A DNA stretch of 64,000 bases. Source: an uncultured Gammaproteobacteria bacterium. GTDB lineage: Bacteria; Pseudomonadota; Gammaproteobacteria; Pseudomonadales; Pseudohongiellaceae. The stretch spans positions 1 through 64,000 of the forward strand of contig CAILUG010000008.1 in NCBI GenBank assembly GCA_903837345.1. Reading direction: 5' to 3'. The translations under genes were made by a program, and so were the position numbers. Positions 11,517 through 12,899 of the stretch are shown piece after piece. Position 1 is the first letter of the stretch, and every line of letters begins with the position of its first letter. A model generated the notes under the pieces. That model ran no database searches. It saw only the letters and a program-made list of their open reading frames with translations, and was not told the DNA's origin.

Positions 11517-11547
11517 ATGAATTGGCGCACCCGGAGGGACTCGAATC
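11517..11547 (-). repeat. duplicated 3' end of tRNA-Arg(UCG), att-like direct repeat copy 1
   Basis: Thirty-one bases here match 12291-12321 at 29 positions. The second copy covers the 3' CCA, acceptor and T-arm of the intact tRNA-Arg at 12297-12373. The fragment begins 6 bp after the PAP2 stop. A displaced tRNA 3' end on the far side of a small accessory module is what site-specific integration into a tRNA gene leaves behind. Confidence 0.8.
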
Positions 11548-11605
11548 GCGCCGACACTTTAGGCAGCTGATAACGTTATGGTCGCTATTGGGCTATGGAA
11601 CAGCT

Positions 11606-11959
11606 TCAGAAAGATTTATTTGATTTTTTTTGCAGCTCCAGCGCTCGCTTCAGAAGCTCATCAATGCTCTTGTGTGAATACGAGCGGCTTCTATGAGTTG
11701 CTGCAAGCAAACAGAGAATCACTACCTCGCCATCAATGATCTGGCAGAGTAATCGGTAATCGCCCGCTCTGTATTTCCAAAACCCGACAAGGTTGCCTCT
11801 GAGTGGCTCTCCCCTTTCCCTGGGATCGCTGCATTCAGCCTGCAACTTGTCGATATATTTCTTGATGCGTAATTGAGCCGGCTTGCCTAGTTTCCTGAGG
11901 TCGTCGGCAAACCCCTCATCGTACTTTATCTGCCAGCCCGAGCTCCTTCCATAGTTCAT
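11606..11959 (-). CDS. RelE/ParE-family toxin
   Basis: 117 residues with the RelE-type pattern: WQIKYDEGFADDLRKLGKPAQLRIKKYIDKL at the N-terminus (paired helices), LRGNLVGFWKYRAGDYRLLCQI in the central sheet and HRSRSY near the C-terminus. RelE toxins are mRNA endoribonucleases acting at the ribosome; ParE relatives instead poison gyrase. The kept Lys/Arg-rich RxGDYRLL region favours a RelE-like mRNase. ATG 11959 has AAGAGG 7 nt upstream and lies inside the antitoxin gene (44-bp overlap), a common coupling in such modules. Confidence 0.9.
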   Translation of the reverse strand: MNYGRSSGWQIKYDEGFADDLRKLGKPAQLRIKKYIDKLQAECSDPRERGEPLRGNLVGFWKYRAGDYRLLCQIIDGEVVILCLLAATHRSRSYSHKSIDELLKRALELQKKSNKSF

Positions 11960-12143
11960 TGATTGGCCTCTTGCCGCGCTTGGCTTTCACGCGCTCCATC
12001 AACACAGCCATTTCTTCAAGCTCTTCCAGCCTTGCAAGCACAGCATCGCGCAGCACCTGGCTCTGATTCAGCCCAAGCTGGTTCACAACCTCATCCAAGC
12101 GGGTTTTAACGTCGTCTTCCAATCTAAATGTGAGCACACCCAT
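11916..12143 (-). CDS. RelB-type ribbon-helix-helix antitoxin
   Basis: From ATG 12143 (AGGAGG with 5-nt spacing) the product is 75 residues. The N-terminal ribbon-helix-helix DNA-binding domain (MGVLTFRLEDDVKTRLDEV, then NQSQVLRDAV) dimerises and binds the operator. The acidic/basic C-terminal tail (MERVKAKRGKRPINELWKEL) should wrap the toxin. It precedes and overlaps the toxin gene. A near-consensus promoter with a palindrome lies about 45-70 bp upstream, as expected for autoregulation. The frame remains open to 12215, but that extension contains the promoter. Confidence 0.9.
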   Translation of the reverse strand: MGVLTFRLEDDVKTRLDEVVNQLGLNQSQVLRDAVLARLEELEEMAVLMERVKAKRGKRPINELWKELGLADKVR

Positions 12144-12184
12144 GGATTCCTCCTGTGCAGGCACCGATACTGGTCTTTCTTTTT

Positions 12185-12296: not shown

Positions 12297-12373
12297 TGGC
12301 GCGCCCGGAGGGACTCGAACCCCCGACCAACTGGTTCGAAGCCAGTTACTCTATCCAGCTGAGCTACGAGCGC
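12297..12373 (-). tRNA. tRNA-Arg (anticodon UCG)
   Basis: The minus strand folds as a 77-nt tRNA: acceptor GCGCTCG pairing with CGGGCGC, D-arm with AGCTCAGCTGGATAGAG, anticodon stem ACTGG/CCAGT around loop CTTCGAA (anticodon TCG), T-arm with GGTTCGAGTC, and an encoded CCA. It reads CGA codons. Its 3' end is the second copy of the direct repeat that bounds the toxin-antitoxin module. Confidence 0.95.
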
Positions 12374-12436
12374 GGAAAAGGTGATGGTGTGCAGCAGAAC
12401 TGCTGCCGGTAGATTACGTGAAATCTTCGAAGAATG

Positions 12437-12460
12437 CCCGAGGGAATTGATTCGCGCTGC
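12437..12460 (-). repeat. tRNA-tail repeat, copy A
   Basis: This 24-bp segment (CCCGAGGGAATTGATTCGCG and the next 4 bases) matches 12613-12636 at 22 positions. Its first part resembles the 3' acceptor/T-arm of the neighbouring tRNA-Arg(CCG), after which it diverges into GATTCGCGCT. It sits just beyond the 3' end of that intact tRNA. Confidence 0.6.
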
Positions 12461-12467
12461 AAGTGTG

Positions 12468-12544
12468 TGGCGCGCCCGAGGGGATTCGAACCTCTGACCT
12501 TTGCCTCCGGAGGGCAACGCTCTATCCAGCTGAGCTACGGGCGC
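12468..12544 (-). tRNA. tRNA-Arg (anticodon CCG)
   Basis: Complete 77-nt tRNA on the minus strand: acceptor GCGCCCG/CGGGCGC, D-arm AGCTCAGCTGGATAGAG, anticodon stem TTGCC/GGCAA with loop CTCCGGA (anticodon CCG), T-loop GGTTCGAATC and encoded CCA. It reads CGG codons. A damaged copy sharing 60 identical bases lies about 200 bp upstream on the same strand. Confidence 0.95.
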
Positions 12545-12608
12545 ATATTCCAAACACTATGGAGCAACTTCCAATATCGCCTCATCCAGCACAGGCCCTC
12601 TGCCGAGG

Positions 12609-12751
12609 GCCGCCCGAGGGGATTGATTCGCGCTACGCGCTCACCCTGCGGGCGCCTTGCAGGCGTCCTGCGCGCGACTAATGTCGCGCTTGTCGAACCT
12701 CTGACCTTTGCCTCCGGAGGGCAACGCTCTATCCAGCTGAGCTACGGGCGC
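12609..12751 (-). pseudogene. tRNA-Arg(CCG) pseudogene split by a ~69-bp hairpin-rich insert
   Basis: Bases 12693-12752 are identical to 12486-12545, so the acceptor 5' strand, D-arm, anticodon arm and part of the T-arm of tRNA-Arg(CCG) are intact here. The rest of the T-arm and acceptor 3' strand reappear at about 12609-12624, separated by roughly 69 bp. The insert is GC-rich and self-complementary, for example GCGCGAC/GTCGCGC flanking TAAT (about 12671-12688) and CGCCT/AGGCG. The encoded CCA is lost. The transcript cannot form a normal tRNA unless the insert is removed; no intron class of this size is known to me for such a site. Confidence 0.75.
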
Positions 12752-12899
12752 AAATTGGGGACTTCACAACAACGGCGGCATGATACCCAAGCAAGGGCTG
12801 AATTACACGTCGGTGCTATTTTCGGGTTTTTTACATGCTCCGGGGGCGGGCTTCGCGTAGAATTGCGCCCCTTTCAGCCCGGCCTTCCGCACCACTCCC

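Follow-up and report, generated by a model that had tools for sequence, protein, structure and literature searches.

A broken extra copy of tRNA-Arg(CCG) carries an RtT-like structured repeat in its T-loop and stands upstream of the intact gene

The rtT RNA is an old and little studied RNA that is known mainly from tyrT of E. coli and from the Pasteurellaceae. In E. coli, according to PMC4986893 (citing Bosl & Kersten 1991), rtT is liberated from the transcript of a tRNA operon and has been linked to the stringent response. The same article assigns Arrc20 and Arrc21 of Actinobacillus pleuropneumoniae to RtT; these lie upstream of tRNA genes (Asn and Lys), and their expression was detected (PMC4986893). 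Some enterobacterial BIMEs have also been reported to resemble the rtT transcript (PMC2965389). The presence of RtT repeats near tRNAs is already known. Here we describe RtT-like repeats that are fused to the body of a tRNA, usually just upstream of an intact tRNA with the same anticodon, an arrangement that appears to be undescribed in the literature that we searched.

The locus lies in a 64,000-nucleotide stretch of DNA from an uncultured gammaproteobacterium, which we call the window. The feature is a broken extra copy of tRNA-Arg(CCG) with one RtT-like repeat unit in its T-loop. Its tRNA body (12693–12751, minus strand) holds the 5' strand of the acceptor stem, the D-arm, the anticodon arm, the 5' strand of the T-stem, and the TTCGA of the T-loop, where the copy breaks. 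These 59 nt are 100% identical to the intact gene (12486–12544), and if the flanks within the window are included, 12693–12756 and 12486–12549 are 98% identical over 64 nt. The inserted part (12625–12692, minus strand) is 68 nt long and GC-rich, with the hairpins GCGCGAC/GTCGCGC and CGCC/GGCG. After the insert, a truncated tRNA tail (AATCCCCTCGGGC; 12612–12624, minus strand) resumes for 13 nt and then departs from the intact acceptor end, and CCA is absent. A hairpin without a T-run follows (GGCCCTC-GGCA-GAGGGCC; 12594–12611, minus strand). The first-pass annotation of this DNA had reported sixty identical bases up to the T-arm, an insert of about 69 bp, and a 3' part that resumes behind it. 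The identity, the break in the T-arm, and the GC-rich, self-pairing insert all hold, with the two lengths corrected to 59 and 68 nt; what resumes is only those 13 nt, and the acceptor end and CCA are missing.

Behind the interrupted copy is the intact tRNA-Arg(CCG), the second gene of the putative transcript (12468–12544, minus strand; found by ARAGORN and Rfam), and then tRNA-Arg(TCG), the third gene of the cluster (12297–12373, minus strand; found by ARAGORN). These two intact tRNAs are the only ARAGORN calls in the window; the interrupted copy was not called, and with the Rfam tRNA model it scored 29.8 bits against a cut-off of 29. With its T-loop split and its acceptor 3' end lost, it does not have the complete T-arm and the acceptor stem with CCA, or room for it, of a functional tRNA gene. 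Behind the intact tRNA-Arg(CCG), GCGCGAATCAATTCCCTCGGGC (12436–12458, minus strand) is probably the decayed 3' end of another RtT-like unit: it is 96% identical to 12612–12634, it has a weak score (E = 0.61) with the covariance model described below (R1), and two related genomes (G005 and G009) have longer repeat remnants at the equivalent place.

Separately, 11517–11552 holds a 29-bp copy of the 3' end of tRNA-Arg(TCG) (97% identity), 0.75 kb downstream of that gene. Between the two, at 11606–12155, are a ParE-type toxin (11606–11959; Pfam E = 7e-11) and an RHH/CopG antitoxin. This stretch may be a small islet at the tRNA end, bounded by direct repeats; alternatively, the 3'-end copy may be the tail of a decayed RtT-like unit, with the toxin/antitoxin pair inserted between; the sequence that follows the copy resembles the end of a core.

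Placing the insert in a family took an IUPAC pattern and a covariance model, as blastn alone would suggest a near-unique insert. With the insert alone as the query against its own genome and genus, the only significant match was in G002, and in its own genome blastn found the insert itself, short chance-level pieces, and nothing else. The pattern (TTCGACAAGC-gap-GTGAGC-gap-GAATC) matched G002, G004, G013, and G051, as well as records from Alcanivorax, Alloalcanivorax, Thiogranum, and Chromatiales, and these matches are usually behind tRNA-Ser, -Gln, or -Arg. For example, close copies of the insert adjoin tRNA-Arg(TCG) in G004. (Many genome-wide pattern matches, in Chloroflexi, Streptomyces, and others, are due to chance and were left out of the analysis.) The units have the order inverse copy of the tRNA tail, GAACC-loop-GGTTC, GACAAGC, hairpin 1, GCAGGAC, and hairpin 2, followed by CCCC-G.A-GGGG, TGAG, hairpin 4, CGAATC, and a sense copy of the tRNA tail.

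Thirteen units, none of them from the window, G002, or E. coli, were used to build the covariance model R1. It matched the window insert with 64.6 bits (E = 7.2e-15 in 64 kb) and G002 with 25.3 bits. It also matched all four of the four repeat units of E. coli tyrT, which were not in the training set (E from 0.0036 to 0.13). E. coli was kept out of the seed: MAFFT misaligned hairpin 1, so RNAalifold gave no structure on the mixed alignment. In the other direction, the Rfam model for RtT (RF00391) matched G002 (41.9 bits, E = 1.2e-6), G026 (43.9 bits, E = 4.2e-7), and locus L090 (E = 3.9e-7), and its matches in relatives, which include two at 42.5 and 42.3 bits, span the full length of the model (1–130 of 130) at scores below the cut-off of 45. 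No RtT match was found by Rfam in the window even at E ≤ 10, and the 45-bit cut-off of RF00391 was reached in 0 of the 136 genomes of the window's family. The link to RtT therefore runs through intermediates, and since the curated cut-off was not reached, we name the element RtT-like rather than filing it in RF00391. By way of the R1 matches and the RF00391 matches in relatives, the window element has the core architecture and the sequence landmarks of RtT, and like an RtT unit it ends in the tail of the neighbouring tRNA (the 13-nt AATCCCCTCGGGC). Another RtT trait, tandem units downstream of an intact tRNA, occurs in relatives; in the window, the core is single and upstream, and downstream of the intact tRNA-Arg(CCG) there is a decayed remnant only.

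The RtT-like core of the window, which runs from TTCGACAAGC to GCGAATC (12625–12697, minus strand), was delimited by the R1 match, the fold, and the pattern matches in relatives; the conserved structure that holds the insert also uses the flanking TTCGA. The first-pass annotation had suggested predicting its fold. Folded alone, the core reaches -36.7 kcal/mol (z = -2.5), with a closing helix (GGTTC/GAATC) around four hairpins; the element ends in the copied tRNA tail. Hairpin 1 (GCGCGAC-ATTA-GTCGCGC; 12672–12689) and hairpin 4 (GCGC-GTA-GCGC; 12630–12640) are supported by both the R1 alignment and the fold, and correspond to the covarying helices 2 and 5. Hairpin 2 (CGCC-TGCAA-GGCG in the family consensus; 12653–12665) comes from the R1 alignment and is the covarying helix 3; for the window core, the single-sequence minimum free energy favours a competing local pairing, GCAGG/CCTGC. 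Hairpin 3 (CCC-GCA-GGG; 12644–12652), also from the R1 alignment and corresponding to helix 4, is followed by a conserved TGAG. All four are on the minus strand. Because the fold has a z of -2.5 and the core is matched by a model trained on other genomes, it is not a product of chance.

The core is a structure with strong covariation across 94 sequences. In the plain MAFFT alignment of the seed, 94.6% of cells were paired and there were 27 double changes, versus 9.5 in shuffles; in slid controls, 34–48% of cells were paired. In the model-fitted alignment (97 matches, of which 94 are distinct), which leans to the covariance model that it was aligned to, 96.8% of cells were paired, there were 468 double-change cells versus 129 in shuffles, and 19 of the 23 pairs had double changes (36–45% paired in slid controls).

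By R1, whose E-values are rough, matches were present in 74 of the 136 genomes of the window's family (E ≤ 0.01), in 70 of 370 genomes of the class, and in 29 of 397 genomes of the phylum (E ≤ 0.001 for both). We examined 180 matches with their flanks; these were drawn from the better-scoring ones and are not a random sample. Among them, 83 units lie 46–91 nt behind an intact tRNA on the same strand (Ser 42, Arg 36, Gln 4, Pro 1). The tail of these downstream units matches its own tRNA at 12.8/16, as compared to 8.5/16 for other isotypes, and the own tRNA is the better match for 79 of the 83. Many units are arranged in tandem. At L090 and L102, the downstream units come after long palindromes made of a tRNA tail, a terminator hairpin, and an inverted tRNA tail. 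The first-pass annotation had proposed a repeat that is tied to tRNA T-arms, and this was borne out when the genome and its relatives were searched, as copies stand beside other tRNAs in relatives. Its suggestion of a REP-like element fared worse. The window's genome has one recognisable copy by R1, and the units lie in tRNA operons with tRNA tails; this copy number contradicts a REP or BIME, which would have many dispersed intergenic copies. An attachment site for an integrative element is likewise unsupported, since the same core is found at many isotypes and no integrase was seen at the locus. Overall, the survey suggests that the structured core often accompanies tRNA genes throughout the Gammaproteobacteria, that it is strongly constrained as a structure, and that it always comes with the tail of its host tRNA.

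To detect fusions like the one in the window, the 90 nt ahead of each core were aligned to a library of tRNA bodies, and a score of at least 24 was required (the shuffled maximum was 14). Fusions were found for 23 of the 180 matches. Fourteen of these loci also have, on the same strand, an intact tRNA that shares the anticodon of the fusion, and the fusion is upstream of it in 13 of the 14; as some loci are not independent (Ser GGA in G051, G013, and G127; Cys in G081, G089, and G105), this corresponds to about nine lineages versus one. The exception, at L179 (Gln), is downstream. The 13 upstream fusions come from 13 genomes, the window's included, with the nearest intact copy 27–121 nt away, and represent eight anticodons (Ser GGA, TGA, and GCT; Arg CCG, ACG, TCG, and CCT; and Cys GCA). 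In all fusions, the junction is exactly at TTCGA (or TTCAA or TTTGA), and the full acceptor end survives in none. At six loci (the window, L167, L201, L187, L228, and L263), fusion body and intact gene are 100% identical, and several other bodies are decayed (for example, in G029 and G087). Within its genus, the window's genome is the only one with a fusion.

Two other loci have related arrangements. At L279 (G395:C101:1-2200), three tandem fusions of tRNA-Ser(GGA) to the core precede the intact tRNA and two units follow it, so that arrays stand on both sides. In G001 (locus L074), the 5' end of tRNA-Arg(CCG) recurs as a short second copy (CAGCTGAGCTACGGGCGC, plus strand) some 0.3 kb upstream of the intact tRNA-Arg(CCG); it has no clear core and is possibly a decayed fusion.

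In the window, the order is upstream region, fusion, intact tRNA-Arg(CCG), tRNA-Arg(TCG). The region upstream of the fusion (12753–12880, minus strand) is conserved and is the likely promoter region of the ancestral tRNA-Arg(CCG): the 150 nt ahead of the fusion align with the sequence that precedes the intact tRNA-Arg(CCG) in G005 and G009 at a score of 74–75, with shuffles reaching at most 20. What precedes the intact tRNA-Arg(CCG) of the window does not align with those upstream regions from G005 and G009. As the ancestral upstream region stands ahead of the fusion, the fusion occupies the ancestral first position, with the intact copy behind it. The conserved region includes TATCAT (12780–12785, minus strand), a possible -10 element. 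A simple scan found no sigma-70 consensus ahead of the fusion and no terminator-like site in the region, so the promoter is proposed from conservation. Given the place of the fusion behind the conserved region, the tRNA transcript probably has the fusion as its leader. The first-pass annotation mentioned neither this position, upstream of the intact gene and behind the ancestral region, nor the relation to RtT.

Some fusions may be old. A derived insertion close to the anticodon arm is common to the Ser(GGA) fusions of G051, G013, and G127. These genomes represent three genera, so this fusion probably predates their split. (The extra stretch, GCGG.ATGCAAGCACAC, is seen at L163, L164, and L166 and is absent from the intact tRNAs.) Of 40 informative comparisons, at sites where the intact tRNAs differ, 39 show the Ser(GGA) fusion agreeing with the tRNA of its own genome; the comparisons were made in pairs and do not count as independent. 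The picture is less clear for the Cys and Arg(TCG) sets. For Ser(GGA), this own-genome matching suggests gene conversion.

The explanation that we consider quite probable is that the insert represents the core of a structured RtT-like repeat that accompanies tRNA genes, and that it sits in the T-loop of tRNA-Arg(CCG) in place of the functional 3' end. Sequence comparison shows the family identity, the covarying structure, the link to tRNA tails, the recurrent upstream fusion, and the position behind the ancestral region. The fusion would be transcribed together with the tRNA genes and form the 5' leader of their precursor. Lacking the acceptor/CCA end, its RNA presumably could not mature into a tRNA; when the precursor is processed, the structured piece might stay in the leader or be freed from it, much as E. 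coli rtT is released.

As to origin, in downstream units the stretch between the TTCGA of the tRNA and the TTCGA of the core is largely palindromic (tail, terminator, inverted tail). In bacteria, palindromes flanked by short direct repeats are well known to be lost. We propose that a tRNA with its repeat unit was duplicated and that one copy lost the tail-spacer-inverted tail stretch, which would have been flanked by direct TTCGA repeats in the T-loop and at the start of the core; such a loss in one copy of a duplicated unit gives exactly such a fusion. Gene conversion, or recurrent formation of the fusion, could then keep the body matched to the intact gene. The first-pass annotation had offered, as one option, a recombination product with tRNA ends on both sides, tRNA sequence does flank the insert, and a recombination product is the best fit for this copy. 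The deletion origin leaves the near-constant upstream placement of the fusions unexplained, and this gives room for a function.

A functional leader could be maintained as a tRNA mimic that regulates its operon, for instance by binding tRNA enzymes or by steering processing; we regard this as a tentative possibility. It would account for the 13 of 14 loci with a fusion upstream of a tRNA with the same anticodon, for the insertion common to the three Ser(GGA) fusions, and for the placement behind the ancestral upstream region. However, fusions are sporadic and a small minority of the analysed matches, several bodies have decayed, and within the genus only the window's genome has one. Equally speculative is the broader proposal that tRNA::RtT fusions, as a class, are leader RNAs that mimic tRNAs, form recurrently, are kept matched to their own tRNA by gene conversion, and regulate the processing or the expression of the tRNA operon that they head.

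We think it rather unlikely that a small selfish repeat targets tRNA T-loops, or copies itself into them, at TTCGA^AATC, so that each fusion is a fresh insertion without any deletion. The exact junction in all fusions and the six identical bodies do look like recent insertion, and cores stand beside tRNAs of many isotypes. But no target duplication and no linked transposase were seen, the window's genome has just one clear copy, and insertion alone does not explain why every fusion has lost the acceptor 3' end. Also, the inverted and sense tails of downstream units are better explained by growth of arrays through tail recombination.

An assembly artefact or random recombination debris is very improbable. 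The assembly has 63 contigs and several fusions are at contig ends, but the same organisation is found in 12 other genomes, some of them near-complete (6 contigs for G486 and 4 for G081), and the conserved upstream region stands at the left flank. Least credible of all is splicing of an intron-like or split tRNA to yield a second functional tRNA-Arg(CCG): the body and the T-stem strands that flank the insert are intact, but here, as in the other fusions, the sequence behind the insert lacks the acceptor end and CCA, ARAGORN finds no gene, and, as the first-pass annotation had held, a known self-splicing intron can be rejected (no Rfam intron match, and an incomplete 3' exon, so that the gene would not be restored).

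The recurrent fusions upstream of tRNAs of the same anticodon offer a direct test case for whether these elements are selfish repeats or take part in tRNA regulation. For annotation, such copies should not be counted as extra tRNA genes.

Compared with known systems, the closest is the RtT RNA (RF00391, rttR). The repeats of E. coli tyrT have the same order, GGTTCGA, hairpins, GGCCCGAAGGG(T)GAG, hairpin, CGAAT, and tRNA tail, and as in the RtT-like family they have flanking inverted and sense tRNA tails and occur as tandem units behind the tRNA. In contrast to RtT RNA, the RtT-like family scores below the Rfam cut-off and is tied to Ser, Arg, Gln, Cys, and other tRNAs instead of Tyr. Like BIMEs and REPs, the window element consists of short GC-rich palindromes, but it is not dispersed in the genome, it is tied to tRNA tails, and it has a four-hairpin architecture. 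Arrc20 and Arrc21 share the position upstream of a tRNA gene; the passages of the article that were read describe no tRNA body fused to the repeat (PMC4986893). And whereas RtT in E. coli tyrT forms an array behind its gene, the window has a single core within a tRNA body, upstream of the gene.
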